Virus record (IMG/VR): IMGVR_UViG_3300015196_000007
Span: 1-21,366 of that record
From: a virus
DNA length: 21,366 nucleotides
Direction: 5' to 3' (one strand)
Positions 1 through 17,370 of the stretch are shown piece after piece. The position numbers were made by a program, and so were the translations under genes. The stretch's first letter is position 1; the number at the start of each line of letters is the position of its first letter. Under the pieces are notes generated by a model. That model had not been told where the DNA came from, searched no databases, and was given only the letters and a program-made list of their open reading frames with translations.

Positions 1-1203
1 ATCCCATCCCGATGAAATTTTATCGTTTAAGTCCTTAACTTGAAAGTTTTTTGCAGCAATCATGGCATCTTTATGATCCATTGTTTTTTCATAAAAAGCT
101 ACATTTTCATCATTCTTTTTTGTGATGTCATTTATAGCTTTTTCTTTATCGGTTGCTTTTTCTTTTTCAGATAATGCCTTAGCCTCTCCTACAGATTGAT
201 AAGCATATACTAATCCTCCAATGGCTAATACTAATAATCCTACAGGTCCTAATGCAGAATCCATAACGGCAGTAAAAATTGTTCCGCTTGCTGCTGCAAC
301 TCTTATTGCATCACTTATAGCAAGAAATAAAGGCGGCACTATTGTAAAAGCTTTCATGGCTAAAAATGCAGCTCCTAATGATATTGTTAGTTTTTTTATT
401 AAATCCCAATGTTCCTTAAGAAATAAAATACTTTGTTTTAGAGTATTCGCAAAACTTTCTAAGGCAGGTGTAAGTTCGGTAAGCAATGATGTGGCAGCTT
501 CACCAACTGTTATTTTTATACCTCCCATTATTTTGTTATACTGAAAGAGAGGATCTGCTTGTGCCATTGCTTTTGCAACACCTTCATAACCACTTGTTGC
601 AATTGCATCCAACATTGCCTGCTGTGCTTGTATTAAATGTCCGCTCTCCTGCAACTGCTTGATCATATCCTTTTGTTGGTCGGTAAACATTACACCATAC
701 CTCATTAACTTTTGTAATCCTTTTGCAGGATCGTTAAATGCCTTACCAAACATTATAGCGGTTTCAGAAAGTCCATGATTTGTTTGTTTGGCAATGTCTG
801 TAACCATGCCCATTGAACGCTCAAATACTTCTTTTGTAATTGATGGGAATGTTAGCAATTGAGATTGCATGTCCATTACTTCTGACCGGCTAAATTGTAC
901 TTGACTAGAAAGACTTTTAGCCATATCTGTAATATCTTTCATTCCTAAACCTGCTGCCTCTCCTGTTGATTTTAAATTTGCTTCAACCTTTGCCATTGAT
1001 TGCTCTAAAGCATGAAATGCTTCTACACCTTCATGTATAAATTCAGCACCCTTAAAAACAGCAAAGCCTACGCCCAAAGTTGCTAGCATACTTCCAGCAG
1101 ATTTTAGAGAGCTTTCTAATTTATTTACATGGGTATTTGCACTATCAACACTGCCTGACATTTGGTCTCGCAAACTAAGGACGTATTCAACATTTGTTGC
1201 CAT
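1..1203 (-). CDS. Phage tail tape measure protein (5' part; continues past the left edge)
   Basis: An open frame of 401 codons starts at the ATG at 1203-1201 (MATNVEYVLS) and runs off the window at base 1 without a stop. The protein begins with a helical, Gln/Ser/Lys-rich segment and then shows features usual in tape measure proteins: a long mixed helical region (SMAKVEANLKSTGE, SQVQFSRSEVMDMQSQLL, MFGKAFNDPAKGLQKLMRYG) followed by hydrophobic stretches around LGAAFLAMKAFTIVPPLF and ALGPVGLLVLAIGGLVYAY, then a charged helix (EKEKATDKEKAINDI). Such proteins set tail length and are carried inside the tail tube. Its place after sheath, tube and tail chaperone fits the canonical order. The opposite-strand gene at 1234-1692 separates it from the preceding virion gene. 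The family call is by sequence style and context; the C-terminal part is not visible. Confidence 0.85.
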   Translation of the reverse strand, partial: MATNVEYVLSLRDQMSGSVDSANTHVNKLESSLKSAGSMLATLGVGFAVFKGAEFIHEGVEAFHALEQSMAKVEANLKSTGEAAGLGMKDITDMAKSLSSQVQFSRSEVMDMQSQLLTFPSITKEVFERSMGMVTDIAKQTNHGLSETAIMFGKAFNDPAKGLQKLMRYGVMFTDQQKDMIKQLQESGHLIQAQQAMLDAIATSGYEGVAKAMAQADPLFQYNKIMGGIKITVGEAATSLLTELTPALESFANTLKQSILFLKEHWDLIKKLTISLGAAFLAMKAFTIVPPLFLAISDAIRVAAASGTIFTAVMDSALGPVGLLVLAIGGLVYAYQSVGEAKALSEKEKATDKEKAINDITKKNDENVAFYEKTMDHKDAMIAAKNFQVKDLNDKISSGWD

Positions 1204-1225
1204 TATAAAAAAAATGTTATATTTA
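1193..1225 (+). promoter_or_regulatory. Candidate Bacteroidota-type promoter for the 1234-1692 gene
   Basis: The sequence reads TTTGTTG at 1193-1199 and TATATTTA at 1218-1225. This is one base off the Bacteroidota -7 element TAnnTTTG, and the TTG at 1197-1199 lies 18 bases upstream of it. Transcription would start within a few bases of the ATG at 1234, giving a very short leader. It overlaps the 5' end of the tape measure gene on the other strand. It is a match by eye to the consensus only. Confidence 0.4.
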
Positions 1226-1233
1226 TTAAAAAA

Positions 1234-1692
1234 ATGGAAGCGAACAATATAAAATGCCCGAAATGTTCATCAACACAATTGTACTTTGACAAAAAGGGTT
1301 TTAGCGGTAAAAAAGCTGTAGTAGGTGCAGTTCTTACCGGTGGTATTGGCTTACTTGCCGGTACATTAGGTAGTAATAAAGTAATGGCAAGTTGCCTTGC
1401 TTGTGGAAATAAGTTTTCACCTGTAAAACCTAAAACTTTTACTAATAATATACCATCTGCAAGAATTGAGAATATACCTACTGAACCAATTATTCCCATA
1501 ACTAAAACAGAATACAAAATAAGGTGTTGGATATTTACCATAATTACCTTGTTTTTATTTGCTTTTTTCTGTAAGGATTTTATTCATCATAATTTTTCCT
1601 TCTTAGATTTTTTAGCTTTATTTGGTTCTTTGATTTTTGGTAGTTTATCTTATTATTCTTACCAACTTTCAAAGCCCGTTACTACTTCTTAA
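1234..1692 (+). CDS. Zinc-ribbon protein with two membrane segments (moron)
   Basis: This 152-aa protein is read against the late genes. I take the ATG at 1234 as the start because the frame upstream of it overlaps the tape measure gene and the candidate promoter. The N-terminus has a CxxC pair (C8, C11) and a second CxxC pair (C54, C57) flanking a Gly/Ala-rich hydrophobic stretch (VVGAVLTGGIGLLAGTLGS). This is the pattern of a widespread small zinc-ribbon family in which the ribbon arms flank a glycine-rich segment. Two further hydrophobic segments (about 99-113 and 124-142) suggest membrane anchoring. The 3' end overlaps the end of the convergent virion gene by 4 bp. Strand, own promoter and membrane character suggest an accessory gene acting on the host cell. 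The molecular function is unknown. Confidence 0.7.
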   Translation: MEANNIKCPKCSSTQLYFDKKGFSGKKAVVGAVLTGGIGLLAGTLGSNKVMASCLACGNKFSPVKPKTFTNNIPSARIENIPTEPIIPITKTEYKIRCWIFTIITLFLFAFFCKDFIHHNFSFLDFLALFGSLIFGSLSYYSYQLSKPVTTS

Positions 1693-3503
1693 ACTATAAC
1701 ACTTGCGCCAATTGTTGCCGTTACTGCCGGTGTTGTACCTGAAACTGTATAAAGTATTCTAAATGTTCTAGGCAATACCTGTGGTGTGCTTACATTAGCT
1801 GTAGATGCTGCACCGGGATAAACAGTTAATAGATTTGTTGATACTGTACTTAATGCCGCACTAACTAATAATGTATAATATTTACCGCTTGCAACATCTT
1901 TACCCTGTACTGTTACCGTAAACACGGGTGTAGTTCCCGAAATAGCCGTTACATCAATTACTAATTGTAATCCTCTGCCATTATAATTTATTTGATCTGC
2001 ACTGTTGCCACCTACTGCCGATGCTGCAAGGGTAACTAATGAAAGATCATTGTTATTTCTTTGGCGATCCATTGTGGCACCGTTAAATAATGCGGGTGTT
2101 TCAGCCACAATATTTTGTACAGGCATTGCATCTTGTGATGCTGATCTTTCAACGTAGTTTAAATTGGTTACGGGATCATAAACACACTCTTCTTCAATGC
2201 CTATACCTGTTGCCAAAAATCCATTAAGCCCCGGCCCATTAGCTGCAAAATCATCCCATTCAACTGTTGCACCGTTAGCATGTGTAAATACTGTGTTTGA
2301 AACAAAACCAATCGTAAGCGATCCTGCCACATAGGTAGAAATTACATAAACAACTTCTTGGTTTGCTGTACCTCTGTCTATTATTAATTGTTCTCCTGCT
2401 GCTAATCCTAAAACGGAAGAAACTGTTATAGATGAAACACCTGCCGCCACACCTGAACCTCCGTTTACTAATCCTGTATTTTTTAATTTTGCCTGTAAAT
2501 TTCTTGCTCTGTCATAGTTGCCACCTCCCGGTGCGCCACCATTCCATTCGTACTCTGCCGCTACCGCCGTACCTACACCTGTTGCACCGTCTAATTCACC
2601 TGCTGCGCTTCTTTCTCTCTCCCATCCGCCATTGCTGCTGTTTAAAGTTTGATTGTATAAATAGGTACCTGCTGCACCGTAACCCTGACCGCTTGAACCA
2701 TCCGCTGCGGTTGCATCCCGTGATTGGTTATATACAAAGCCTAAAATATTAAAGTTTACTGCATGGCTTTTTGCTGCCTTTGCCGTAAATGTCGTAGTTG
2801 TTACCGACAAAACTACAACTGCTTCCTGATTGGCAGGAACCGGCCCACCTACAGGTGAAGGCTCTAAAACCAACACCGAACCTACTTGAATGCTCCACGG
2901 TGCGCCCGAAGTAAAACCTGCCATTGCAGCCGGTGTAAAAGTTACTGTTGCACCTGCCACTGTTGCCCCTGCGTGTATAGATGAAAATGGCTGTGCGTTC
3001 TGTGCTGCACCTGTAGATATTCCTAATGCTGAAACGGAATCAATGCCCGTTTCTCTTTGTCTGTCTAAATTTCCTGATTGATTTAAAAGCTGTGCAACAC
3101 CACCCGTTAAAAGTCCGTTACCTGTACCGATGTTTTGATTATCTATGTTGTGAAACTGTGCTACTGTAGCTTTTATGCCTGTTGCAACACCATCGTTTAG
3201 TGCAACACTTCCTGAAACAACACCGCCACCACCGCTTGCTGCTGCCGCCTCTAAAAATAAGGCTGCAATTTGTGTATCAAACGTTGATTGATTTACAATT
3301 GAAACGCTGTTGATTATAACAGAAGCGTTTGGAATGTTTGGGTAATAATAATTGTTATTGTTAGTTACAAAACCAAGATTGATTGTGTTAGATGCTTGGT
3401 TGTAACTAATAACTACGTTTGCTTTCGATGGATATGATTCACCATCAACGCCATCAATTTGTATTTTAACTTTATTTCCTTCGCCAATTAGATTATATGC
3501 CAT
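1689..3503 (-). CDS. Large virion protein with repeated DR-R motifs and beta repeats
   Basis: This 604-aa protein lies between the tail chaperone and the tape measure gene. It has a low-complexity Gly/Ala/Ser/Thr/Val-rich composition typical of beta-rich virion proteins. A short motif of aromatic or small residues followed by (D/E)RxR recurs: NLDRQRE (~146), VYNQSRD (~258), GGWERER (~292), GNYDRAR (~328), NYVERSA (~449) and ATMDRQRNN (~476). Two segments look like copies of one beta module (about 205-252 and 357-419), both with NQE followed by V-rich strands and a final H-A-x-G/N. The last 100 residues (from about 505) form an Ig-like beta module (LQLVIDVT, FTVTVQGKDVASGKYY, LPRTFRI). Its start ATG at 3503 overlaps by one base the stop of the frameshift extension of the chaperone. 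It is probably a tail or capsid surface protein; the exact role is unknown. Confidence 0.7.
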   Translation of the reverse strand: MAYNLIGEGNKVKIQIDGVDGESYPSKANVVISYNQASNTINLGFVTNNNNYYYPNIPNASVIINSVSIVNQSTFDTQIAALFLEAAAASGGGGVVSGSVALNDGVATGIKATVAQFHNIDNQNIGTGNGLLTGGVAQLLNQSGNLDRQRETGIDSVSALGISTGAAQNAQPFSSIHAGATVAGATVTFTPAAMAGFTSGAPWSIQVGSVLVLEPSPVGGPVPANQEAVVVLSVTTTTFTAKAAKSHAVNFNILGFVYNQSRDATAADGSSGQGYGAAGTYLYNQTLNSSNGGWERERSAAGELDGATGVGTAVAAEYEWNGGAPGGGNYDRARNLQAKLKNTGLVNGGSGVAAGVSSITVSSVLGLAAGEQLIIDRGTANQEVVYVISTYVAGSLTIGFVSNTVFTHANGATVEWDDFAANGPGLNGFLATGIGIEEECVYDPVTNLNYVERSASQDAMPVQNIVAETPALFNGATMDRQRNNNDLSLVTLAASAVGGNSADQINYNGRGLQLVIDVTAISGTTPVFTVTVQGKDVASGKYYTLLVSAALSTVSTNLLTVYPGAASTANVSTPQVLPRTFRILYTVSGTTPAVTATIGASVIV

Positions 3504-4044
3504 TATGAAAAATTTACTTGGTTAACAATTTCTAAATAAAACTTTACCTGCCCCCATGCCCTGTGCCATTCATCTTCTTCTAAATCGTTTGGCTCTATAT
3601 GCAAAACGCAGCGGATAAAAGCGGACATTCGCTCTACCCCGCTGCATTCATTATTTACTTCGTATTGATCTACTTTTTTTTAAACTGATTTTGCAGGCGT
3701 GTTACCATACCCAAACAGTAATCAACGATGCCTAATTTGTATCTGTCACTGTCCGGGCTTTCGCTGTAAGTAATAGCATCTGAATGCTCTTTAATTACTG
3801 AAACCTCCCTTAGTTCTTCTGCTGCTGTGTAGATTCCCATTGTTGTAGCCTTGTCCATTACCCTAATTTTAGTAAGGTAATTTGGCTCCTTTAAATAACA
3901 TACTGCACGCTCTAAAGTGTCAGGATCAATCTGTACAACTACATGAACTTTTGAAACGGATAACTCTCTTGCAAGTGCTTCACATTTTTCGTTATATGCT
4001 TTGTTTTCCGGTATAGTTAACTCCGGGCTTAGTTTTTTACTCAT
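3503..4044 (-). CDS. Frameshifted tail assembly chaperone (gpG-GT-like fusion, -1 frame extension)
   Basis: This is the predicted second product of the chaperone gene. The ribosome reads 4044-3673, slips one base back on A AAA AAG and continues from 3673 to the TAA at 3505-3503. The product is 124 + 56 = 180 aa. The extension starts VDQYEVNNEC and ends VKFYLEIVNQVNFS; it has no ATG at its beginning, is free of stops for 56 codons, contains a normal-looking acidic/aromatic segment (EPNDLEEDEWHRAWGQV), and ends in a TAATG junction with the next gene, the same style as elsewhere in this operon. Tail chaperones of long-tailed phages are known to be made as a short and a frameshifted long form, both required for tail assembly around the tape measure protein. 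The slip itself is inferred from the sequence. Confidence 0.75.
3608..3645 (-). promoter_or_regulatory. Stem-loop downstream of the frameshift site
   Basis: A perfect 7-bp inverted repeat (GCAGCGG ... CCGCTGC read on the minus strand; arms 3645-3639 and 3614-3608) encloses an inner 4-bp stem (AGCG/CGCT). The outer stem starts 27 bases after the slippery heptamer. That is farther than the usual 5-9 bases, so a stimulatory role is possible but unproven. Confidence 0.4.
3670..4044 (-). CDS. Tail assembly chaperone, short form
   Basis: This 124-aa protein starts at ATG 4044 and stops at TAG 3672-3670. It follows the tail tube gene and precedes the tape measure region, the place of the tail assembly chaperone in contractile and siphovirus-type phages. 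The protein is hydrophilic and mixed alpha/beta: an N-terminal Lys/Glu-rich helix (ENKAYNEKCEALARELS), a strand (VHVVVQI), and a C-terminal helix ending QNQFKKK. The last codons, AAA AAA AAG TAG, contain the slippery heptamer, so most ribosomes would make this form and a minority the extended one. No residue motif identifies the family alone; size, position and the frameshift site together make the case. Confidence 0.75.
   Translation of the reverse strand: MSKKLSPELTIPENKAYNEKCEALARELSVSKVHVVVQIDPDTLERAVCYLKEPNYLTKIRVMDKATTMGIYTAAEELREVSVIKEHSDAITYSESPDSDRYKLGIVDYCLGMVTRLQNQFKKK
3673..3679 (-). promoter_or_regulatory. Programmed -1 frameshift slippery site A AAA AAG
   Basis: The zero-frame codons at the end of the chaperone gene are TTT AAA AAA AAG TAG. 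The heptamer A AAA AAG (minus strand 3679-3673) is in the correct phase for a simultaneous -1 slip and is a well-known highly slippery bacterial sequence, also used in dnaX. The stop codon follows at once, which favours pausing. The -1 frame then stays open for 56 codons. Confidence 0.8.
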
Positions 4045-4060: not shown

Positions 4061-4474
4061 TTAACGTTGTATGCCACCAATTATTAACGGAATCTTTACC
4101 GTTAATTTCGTATCGCCTGTTTTACTTTCTAATGGATCTTCTAAAAACTCCACAGCAAGTAATACATCTTTATTTGTTAGCACACCTGTACCACCGAATG
4201 TTACCGGAATTGTAAAAGGTGCAATCTGTAATGGATCTCTGTTTGGTGCGCTTGCTATAATGGATTTCCATGTATCGGTATAAAGTTCAATTGAACCTTC
4301 ATACTCCTTCATGCCGTAACCTCTGCTTATTGGCTCAAAGCCTGCACCGTAATTATTTTCTTTCTTTTGCTTGCGCTTATATTCAATAGATAATATCCCA
4401 ACTACCGGAGTACCAAAAAGTACAACCGAAATATTGCCCCAAGAATAGTTTGTACCATTTATCAAAACTGCCAT
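4061..4474 (-). CDS. Tail tube protein
   Basis: This 137-aa protein lies immediately after the sheath gene (3-base gap), the standard position of the tube gene in contractile tails. It is beta-rich and starts with the tube-like pattern of an N-terminal strand-turn (INGTNYSWGNISVVLFG), followed by VVGILSIEYKRKQKKENNYG, then a strand-rich core (KEYEGSIELYTDTWKSII) and a C-terminal strand with a basic end (KLTVKIPLIIGGIQR). The segment after residue 30 reads like the long loop and strand that stack neighbouring tube rings. The assignment is by order, size and secondary-structure style. It would form the inner tube through which DNA passes. Confidence 0.75.
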   Translation of the reverse strand: MAVLINGTNYSWGNISVVLFGTPVVGILSIEYKRKQKKENNYGAGFEPISRGYGMKEYEGSIELYTDTWKSIIASAPNRDPLQIAPFTIPVTFGGTGVLTNKDVLLAVEFLEDPLESKTGDTKLTVKIPLIIGGIQR

Positions 4475-4477
4475 AAC

Positions 4478-5995
4478 TTATATTTTTGGTTTGAATCCAA
4501 TCGGAATTATTATTTGACGAGCTGTACCATTTATTACAAGCGTTACAGCGATAACGATGGTTGATGTTGATAGTACGTTCTGCACCGGGTTAATTAGTAC
4601 CGCCATTGCTGAAATTTCGAGATCACGTATCATTTGATTTAACGGTAATTCTGCCTGTGCAGATAGATAAGCCGTTGTAGTTTCTGCAAGTGTACCATCC
4701 GCATTAAGCGTTAACGGGCTGTTTAACGAAGGCAGCATAAAAGTATAAATACCTCTTGTTGCTTTGTCAATCGTTCTGTTATTCTCAATGTATGCGTAAT
4801 CACTTGAAACAACTGTAGCTGTATGGCTATCGTTAAACCATGATCCGCTGATGCCTACAAACTTTCTTAGGAAAACATAACGCCTTGTGTTTAGCGAATC
4901 AATTAGCCCGTCTGTAATTGCTACAGAAGAAAACAATTGACCATTTGCATAGGCAAGTAGTTCGCATTCCGTTCCGTTGCTTATGTTAAACTTTGCTACC
5001 CATCCAACGTTCTCTGATACCTTAGCAAATGCTACTGCACCAAGTAAAGCACCTAAAACAGTTACAGATTTACCTGTGGTAAGGAATAAGAAATTACCCT
5101 GACCTCCGCCATCCTGTCCAATTACTGCTGTAGCTTTATTAGCTGTTAATGTGTTTAAATCTATTAGCGTGCTAATGTCTGTTACACCACTTAAATCGGC
5201 TGCATAAAGGCTTGAAATAGGCTTGTGTGCAACATCGTTTGTTTTACATATTACATCTAATGCTGTAAGGTCTGCAACAGCATAGGCAGCGTTTTTAAAT
5301 ACACCTATTTGTCTGATGGCACCGTTTGCAAAGTTCTGCATTGTTGATACTTCTGCAAAATTGTAAACAGATGGTACGGCAAAAAATCCAACATATAAAA
5401 CACCTTTTGGTGAAATTCTAAAGAACTCACTAATTTGATAATAATAAACTGCTAATGCACTTGCAACACCGCCTGCAGGTTGTGTTAACGTACCGGCAAT
5501 TGCGCCTGTAATAACTACTGCTATTGGAGTGGTTGCATTATTCGGAAAGATGCCTAATTTCTTAGGCATCGTTACTGTCACCGTTGCTGTTGCAAACGCC
5601 GCACTGTATCCGTGGTTAATCGTTCCGCTGTTAATGAAGGCTGCTATACTTGCGCCTAAAATTGCAATTGTTGTATCTGTTGCTTGTCTAACGTAAGTAC
5701 CTAAATCAACAACACTGTTTGGTTCTGTACTAAGTATATCTATTTTGTCACCTGCTGCACCTACCGCTGTTAATAAATATGAAAATGTTGCTGCCGTTGC
5801 ATCGCTGTAATCATTTAAGATACCTGCGTTAACTGCATCTGATAAAGCATATAATGCCTTAATTCTATTTACAGAAGTAAAGCCTGATGGTAGTACATTA
5901 GTGTAAGATAACAGCCCCGAAATATAATCCTGTCCCGGCAATGGTCGACCTAAACCGCCCTGCCCTTTTATGAAGGTAATATTTGATAAAGCCAT
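4478..5995 (-). CDS. Contractile tail sheath protein (DUF2586-like)
   Basis: This 505-aa protein is of the size and position of a contractile sheath subunit, directly upstream of the probable tube gene. The N-terminus (MALSNITFIKGQGGLGRPLPGQDYISGLL) resembles the DUF2586-type sheath family of Mu-like phages. In the C-terminal third are features expected of sheath proteins: WFNDSHTATVVSSDYAYIENNRTIDKATRGIY (here given in pieces: WFNDSHTAT, YIENNRTIDKATRGIY), where an Asn-Arg-x-Ile-Asp segment precedes the final helical/strand domain, and a hydrophobic C-terminal strand (STIVIAVTLVINGTARQIII) of the kind used for strand exchange between subunits. Its presence makes the particle a myovirus-type phage. 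The start follows the stop of the 56-aa gene by 3 bases. Confidence 0.8.
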   Translation of the reverse strand: MALSNITFIKGQGGLGRPLPGQDYISGLLSYTNVLPSGFTSVNRIKALYALSDAVNAGILNDYSDATAATFSYLLTAVGAAGDKIDILSTEPNSVVDLGTYVRQATDTTIAILGASIAAFINSGTINHGYSAAFATATVTVTMPKKLGIFPNNATTPIAVVITGAIAGTLTQPAGGVASALAVYYYQISEFFRISPKGVLYVGFFAVPSVYNFAEVSTMQNFANGAIRQIGVFKNAAYAVADLTALDVICKTNDVAHKPISSLYAADLSGVTDISTLIDLNTLTANKATAVIGQDGGGQGNFLFLTTGKSVTVLGALLGAVAFAKVSENVGWVAKFNISNGTECELLAYANGQLFSSVAITDGLIDSLNTRRYVFLRKFVGISGSWFNDSHTATVVSSDYAYIENNRTIDKATRGIYTFMLPSLNSPLTLNADGTLAETTTAYLSAQAELPLNQMIRDLEISAMAVLINPVQNVLSTSTIVIAVTLVINGTARQIIIPIGFKPKI

Positions 5996-9286: not shown

Positions 9287-9508
9287 ATGAGTCCAAAAGA
9301 AAAAGCAGTTGAGTTATTTGATAAATTTTCACTATGCTACTACCATGCCCCAAATGCAAAACAATGTGCAATTATAGCAGTTGATGAAATATTAATAGCA
9401 AGGCCATGCGCCCCCTTTTGTATTAGTACAGATAGTGGTAGTAGTGAAGCATTAATTGATGCAAATAATTTTTGGATTATAGTAAAGATTGAAATTGAAA
9501 GATTATGA
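9287..9508 (+). CDS. Small PKEKA / AKQCAIIAVDEIL family protein (paralogue of 17125-17370)
   Basis: This 73-aa protein starts at ATG 9287. It shares with the 81-aa protein at 17125-17370 an N-terminal PKEKAxEL, an exactly identical block AKQCAIIAVDEIL (residues ~24-36), and a C-terminal W-x-x-VK-x-EIE+L. The middle differs in length and sequence. I recall similar short proteins in Bacteroidota phages, but no function is known to me. It overlaps the next gene by the ATGA junction (9505-9508), so the two are translationally coupled. The predicted fold is helical with a variable loop. Confidence 0.75.
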   Translation: MSPKEKAVELFDKFSLCYYHAPNAKQCAIIAVDEILIARPCAPFCISTDSGSSEALIDANNFWIIVKIEIERL

Positions 9509-17124: not shown

Positions 17125-17370
17125 TTATAATTTTTCTATTTCTGCTTTTACTTTTATCCAATATTGATATGCTAAACTTCCTTCCGTAACGATAAGATTT
17201 TCTTGAAAATTTAATATTTCATCTACTGCTATAATTGCACATTGTTTTGCCTCTGATTCATGTAATGACGTGCATCTAACATCACAATATGGCATATTAC
17301 AATCCTTACAGTTAAATGAAGCATTAAAGTATTTACCTACTAACTCCATCGCTTTTTCTTTTGGTGCCAT
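17125..17370 (-). CDS. Small PKEKA / AKQCAIIAVDEIL family protein with a Cys cluster
   Basis: This 81-aa protein is a paralogue of the + strand gene at 9287-9508 (shared PKEKAxEL, AKQCAIIAVDEIL and W-x-x-VK-x-EIE-L). Between the first two blocks it carries an insert NCKDCNMPYCDVRC with four Cys, which could bind zinc and is absent from the paralogue. It lies between an exported-protein gene (5 bases away) and the adaptor (3 bases). Unlike its paralogue it is on the late strand and would be made with the head proteins. Function unknown. Confidence 0.75.
   Translation of the reverse strand: MAPKEKAMELVGKYFNASFNCKDCNMPYCDVRCTSLHESEAKQCAIIAVDEILNFQENLIVTEGSLAYQYWIKVKAEIEKL

Follow-up and report, generated by a model that had tools for sequence, protein, structure and literature searches.

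The window, that is the whole stretch of DNA that was analysed, comprises 21,366 nt of the IMG/VR record IMGVR_UViG_3300015196_000007 and carries a set of tail genes on its minus strand (Table 1). Their order, as read with the help of Pfam and PHROG matches, is sheath, tube-like protein, chaperone, extension and tape measure protein. The short chaperone frame closes with CAG TTT AAA AAA AAG TAG. The -1 frame entered from this A-rich end stays open for 56 codons (VDQYEVNNECSGVERMSAFIRCVLHIEPNDLEEDEWHRAWGQVKFYLEIVNQVNFS) up to a TAA (3505-3503), which overlaps the ATG of the next gene in a TAATG junction at 3503. A preliminary description of this DNA had given the coordinates, the in-phase A AAA AAG, the length of the open -1 frame and its peptide, all of which were correct when checked against the sequence. 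It had also counted five further TAATG junctions in the same operon; the junction does recur, at four places (14917, 12893, 11841 and 11015), the fifth overlap being ATGA.

Table 1. Features of the chaperone locus and its surroundings in the window.
Feature	Position	Strand	Basis and remarks
Contractile tail sheath (DUF2586)	4478..5995	-	phrog_907 and PF10758
Tail tube-like protein, upstream of chaperone	4061..4474	-	phrog_4579 tail protein, E 1.6e-18
Short tail assembly chaperone (gpG-like), 124 aa, 0 frame	3670..4044	-	ORF, synteny, relatives; stop TAG 3672-3670
Conserved recoding stretch CAG TTT AAA AAA AAG	3673..3687	-	synonymous codon choice, 54 clusters
-1-frame TAA just before the A run	3680..3682	-	sequence; relatives arranged alike
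Slippery heptamer A AAA AAG	3673..3679	-	sequence and relatives; 8 A + G in the window, 9 A in most relatives
-1-frame extension (gpT-like), 56 codons + TAA	3503..3673	-	no conserved start codon
RNA hairpin inside the extension	3604..3649	-	arms 3649-3638/3615-3604, 12 bp; inner stem 3635-3630/3623-3618, 6 bp
Tape measure protein, runs off the window	1..1203	-	phrog_27166, PF06791 TMP_2

Matches of the portal and capsid proteins are mostly to phages of Bacteroides, Flavobacterium, Winogradskyella and Cellulophaga. Together with the tail gene context, these matches identify a phage with a contractile tail and with relatives on Bacteroidota, a group that would, by these relatives, also include its own host. 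No prophage host was found: genome contigs yielded no relative of the chaperone and, for the extension, a single spurious match of 12 residues, and the short chaperone had no match in a phage genome collection. In relatives L001, L004, L005 and L006 the tape measure gene adjoins the extension directly; in the window the two are separated by a 2.3-kb block (1204-3502). This block contains a 604-aa gene (3503-1689, minus strand), for which neither Pfam nor PHROG nor the loci of relatives gave a match, and, on the opposite strand, a zinc-ribbon-like ORF (1237-1692, plus strand), so that accessory genes seem to have been inserted here.

The short chaperone was modelled by AF2 with a pLDDT of 92.4 and a pTM of 0.83, and the extension as a confident fold of its own (pLDDT 92.5, pTM 0.74). 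Similarity of fold to solved chaperones was weak (E 0.13-0.15): in the Foldseek search with the short chaperone, the chaperone of HK97 (2ob9) ranked second with an E value of 0.15 and YqbN (3klu) twelfth with an E value of 1.6, both weak matches. The model of the extension had no meaningful match among PDB folds, and Pfam and PHROG models matched neither the short chaperone nor the extension.

In contractile phages, P2 gpE/E' and other chaperones are made with the use of a frameshift. The tail assembly chaperones gpG and gpGT of lambda were reportedly treated by Xu, Hendrix and Duda in 2004. The lambda pair is reviewed, and P2 named, in PMC5009743. As in lambda, the gene described here is small and lies between a major tail protein and the tape measure gene, and a -1 shift near its 3' end would add a C-terminal domain without a start of its own. 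Unlike in lambda, the slippery sequence is A AAA AAG or a run of nine As rather than G GGA AAG, the 0-frame stop follows the slip site directly, the window and its nearest relatives have a hairpin approximately 23 nt downstream, and the chaperone is not recognised by the profile models mentioned above. The resemblance to P2 gpE/E' is one of gene logic: the logic and the contractile tail are the same, and the host group and the slip signal differ.

Relatives were collected from IMG/VR by searches with the chaperone, which returned 7 and then 35 loci, and with the extension alone, a search blind to the slip site, which returned 43 and 80 loci. The approximately 98 distinct sequences were grouped into 70 clusters at 85% identity of the extension. 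In nearly all relatives an A-rich slippery stretch closes the upstream ORF, with a stop coming at once or after one codon, and the open -1 frame spans 54-65 codons in the main group. Since the slippery run and the open -1 frame are also present in the loci found through the extension alone, the arrangement is not a product of chance. The chaperone-found relatives were partly picked by a peptide pattern containing QFKKK, so that this motif is biased among them; codon choice, the adjacent stop and the extension-found loci are free of this bias. Over the next ~53 codons, the 70 clusters together contain a single stop in the -1 frame, compared to 328 in frame 0 and 339 in frame +1. A shift to +1 was also considered and rejected: that frame closes within ~33 codons in the loci first examined, with 0 loci stop-free. 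Between close pairs of extensions, substitutions are biased to the third codon position and dN/dS lies mostly between 0.06 and 0.36; on this comparative evidence the extension is under purifying selection.

An alignment of relatives was one of the checks suggested in the preliminary description, and the heptamer and the -1 frame proved to be kept in the ~98 relatives, with substitutions biased as above. Stops in the -1 frame and the lack of a slippery run, named there as evidence that would speak against recoding, were looked for in relatives and not found. The same survey bears on the idea that the -1 frame is a decayed frame or a sequencing error, i.e. the remnant of a gene broken by a homopolymer indel. 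Homopolymers of 8-9 As are indeed prone to error, but an arrangement that recurs in so many distinct relatives and in four isolated phages with other slippery sequences, with its extension apparently under purifying selection, is scarcely to be expected of an error, and we regard this reading as already refuted by the relatives and give it next to no credence.

The site of the frame change is delimited by two stops. Among relatives of the main group, the codon preceding the Lys codons ends in T, which together with the first As of the run reads as TAA in the -1 frame, and the 0-frame stop (TAG in the window) directly abuts the other end. With the run bracketed by these two stops, and an extension that has no conserved start, the change of frame is confined to the 8-9 As. 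Judged from sequence, the bracketing stops and the lack of a conserved start form the strongest argument for recoding. An alternative is that the extension forms a small gene in its own right, with ribosomes initiating at a start of its own or re-initiating once they have passed the chaperone stop. This reading could draw on an ATG at codon 16 of the window's extension (3628-3626) and on the short ORFs of this kind that GenBank has in the phages pippi8-1 and fF4. The preliminary description had seen no ATG near the start of the extension; the ATG at codon 16 exists, and what holds is the absence of a conserved start codon. Several relatives have no ATG, GTG or TTG anywhere in the extension, and an independent start was rejected on this ground. 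Moreover, conservation and the open frame extend right up to the slip site, and codon choice is fixed in the last five codons of the chaperone. A separate gene is thus very improbable.

Isolated phages carry the same arrangement. The Winoviridae, here Flavobacterium phages pippi8-1, FPSV-S1 and fF4 and Winogradskyella phage Peternella_1, have the gene order of the window, and a -1 extension at the same place (L168 3974-4156 in pippi8-1, L169 3977-4156 in FPSV-S1, L336 26648-26899 in Peternella_1 and L337 23732-23923 in fF4). The FPSV-S1 extension matches that of the window by sequence, and the pippi8-1 extension matches that of a relative. The claim that annotation usually loses such extensions is borne out by GenBank, which omits those of FPSV-S1 and Peternella_1 and gives those of pippi8-1 and fF4 an internal start. 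Peternella_1, pippi8-1 and FPSV-S1 have an in-phase A AAA AAG and fF4 has lambda's own G GGA AAG, none with a long A run, which speaks for slippage by the ribosome as the common mode. These isolates differ from the window in having 6 A + G and one sense codon before the stop in three of them, and three codons in fF4. In Bacteroides phage p00 no such junction was present at the three tail-region ORF ends examined. A search of literature outside subscription journals turned up no earlier report of this arrangement in such phages.

Taken together, the evidence supports the assignment of the gene as a short and long tail assembly chaperone pair of the lambda gpG/gpGT kind; the same pair had been proposed in the preliminary description, and it is borne out by synteny, by the heptamer and frame of relatives, by the substitution bias and by the fold of the extension. 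Programmed -1 ribosomal frameshifting probably makes two proteins from this gene. Most ribosomes would halt at the UAG after AAA AAA AAG and release the 124-aa chaperone. A minority would slip back by one base on A AAA AAG, where both Lys tRNAs can re-pair with AAA, read GUA next and append a helical domain of 56 residues. By analogy with lambda, the short form would coat the tape measure protein and the added domain would recruit tail tube subunits. The occurrence and rate of slippage, its ribosomal nature and the role in assembly are what we infer from the locus and its relatives. The predicted tryptic peptide of the window's fusion is VDQYEVNNECSGVER.

The slip signal itself is remarkably uniform among relatives. 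The window has A AAA AAG at 3679-3673, and relatives have A AAA AAA/G. Exactly nine As are found in 54/70 clusters and ten in one more, so that 55/70 have at least nine, and 50/70 read exactly T-A9-TAG (or TAA). A8G occurs in the window and in L005 and A8C in L063; other clusters have A AAA AAG, one codon and then a stop. Among the 54 clusters ending in NNN AAA AAA AAR, synonymous constraint is limited to the last five codons, CAG TTT AAA AAA AAR: CAG is used for 31 of 34 Gln (expected 0.30), TTT for 47 of 48 Phe, and AAA at all three Lys codons except for two AAG. Nothing stands out in the codons further upstream of CAG. The P values for codon choice were computed as if clusters were independent of kinship. 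A chaperone frameshift as such is known from lambda and others; what is new here is the signal common to dozens of relatives, i.e. the near-fixed T-A9-TAG together with the constraint on five codons.

A scan that started from the signal GTTTAAAAAAAAATAG gave at least 118 matches, at least 82 of which end an ORF of at least 70 codons. Among the matches listed, 78 of the 82 ORF-ending ones have at least 45 open -1 codons, and these 78 loci, again among the matches listed, are nearly all recognisable chaperone extensions, including the very divergent L170, L187, L244, L254 and L271. The GTTC version of the scan gave 47 matches, 7 of them in frame and 3 with an open -1 frame. This simple signal can thus serve to locate and annotate lost extensions.

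The uniformity of the A run also bears on transcriptional slippage, in which RNA polymerase would add or drop As, so that some mRNAs carry the extension in frame and ribosomes read them normally. The nine As of most relatives are the length at which bacterial RNA polymerase slips efficiently (PMC5009743), and Thermus dnaX is known to rely on transcriptional slippage at a run of exactly nine identical bases at the frame junction (PMC5009743), as found in most relatives here. The abundance of exact A9 and T-A9-TAG among the clusters fits this, as do L053, L057 and L148, which have exactly nine As at the junction in another codon phase (TTA AAA AAA AAT TAG). Runs of at least nine As are rare elsewhere in these loci (7 in 325,608 bases), and the AAG preferred by ribosomes is rare in relatives (2/54 clusters). 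Homologous dnaX genes use either type of slippage (Larsen 2000, as cited in PMC3711429; dnaX in PMC5009743). However, the window has only eight As followed by G, short of a homopolymer of at least nine A or T, and keeps the in-phase ribosomal heptamer; unlike in Thermus dnaX, some relatives have 6 A or G GGA AAG, and these sequences, found in isolates and distant relatives, should not support polymerase slippage. A9 also results simply from three Lys codons combined with a heptamer that requires AAA AAA. The A8G of the window with its in-phase A AAA AAG appears to favour the ribosome over the polymerase, and transcriptional slippage seems unlikely as the explanation of the pair, being possible on the A9 of relatives outside the window. 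Mass spectrometry cannot separate the two modes, since one added A gives the same peptide (KKK-V/I) as a ribosomal slip. Relatives with A6G and with A9-TAG provide a natural test of ribosomal versus transcriptional slippage within one gene family, as in dnaX.

The RNA hairpin in the extension starts 23 nt past the slip site in the window; the preliminary description had mentioned neither this hairpin nor the T-A9-TAG of relatives. Stimulators of -1 frameshifting are known to begin 5-9 nt, and in rare cases as much as 15 nt, past the heptamer (PMC5009743), a range beyond which the hairpin of the window lies. Its stability stands out against synonymous recodings (z -4.67), and over the 70 clusters the mean z is -2.03, compared to -0.48 and 0.07 in control stretches (P 1.7e-8). 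When arms were swapped among 40 relatives, pairing of each arm with its own partner gave a mean of -16.1 kcal/mol, and the best of 100,000 permutations reached -13.4 (0/100000). In alignment A5, 75.8% of cells pair, compared to 66.7% after shuffling, and 9/18 pairs changed on both sides, figures of a type that related sequences can inflate. The hairpin is absent from one large subclade (L024, L030, L038, L040 and others), and another group of relatives has a shorter hairpin further downstream. Among the four isolates examined, pippi8-1, FPSV-S1 and fF4 have no significant hairpin, and Peternella_1 (z -2.27) has a different and nearer structure. These comparisons argue that selection acts on the hairpin in the clade to which the window belongs, with a distant stimulator, or a protector of an otherwise little-translated stretch, as candidate roles. 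Other structures were considered as well: for a pseudoknot between the spacer and either the loop or downstream sequence, arm swapping gave no signal, and pairing across the slip site, of upstream sequence with the spacer, gave a modest family signal (49/20000) and is not claimed because it amounts to only -3.9 kcal/mol in the window. Rfam had nothing in the window.

A more speculative scenario, which we put forward tentatively and consider possible but rather doubtful, is that in a large clade the switch has moved from ribosomal slippage on A AAA AAG to a fixed T-A9-UAG cassette. Polymerase slippage, or ribosomal slippage aided by the UAG, would then set the ratio of the two products, and the covarying hairpin some 20 nt downstream would be an undescribed kind of distant stimulator or protector. 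A covarying hairpin beyond the known range of stimulators poses a concrete mechanistic question in any case. More generally, strong comparative evidence now places a large group of contractile phages, with kinship to phages of Bacteroidota, among those that have a chaperone frameshift of the lambda type.

Two further observations were made. The 0-frame stop after the A run in the main group is TAG in 53/58 clusters and TAA in 5, and never TGA; in the same loci, most long ORFs close with TAA (146/187). The preference for TAG may reflect slow termination, or only the second residue of the extension. Elsewhere in the window, two small ORFs in opposite orientation (9287-9508, plus strand, and 17125-17370, minus strand) look like paralogues by eye (M-PKEKA-EL ... 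KQCAIIAVDEIL).
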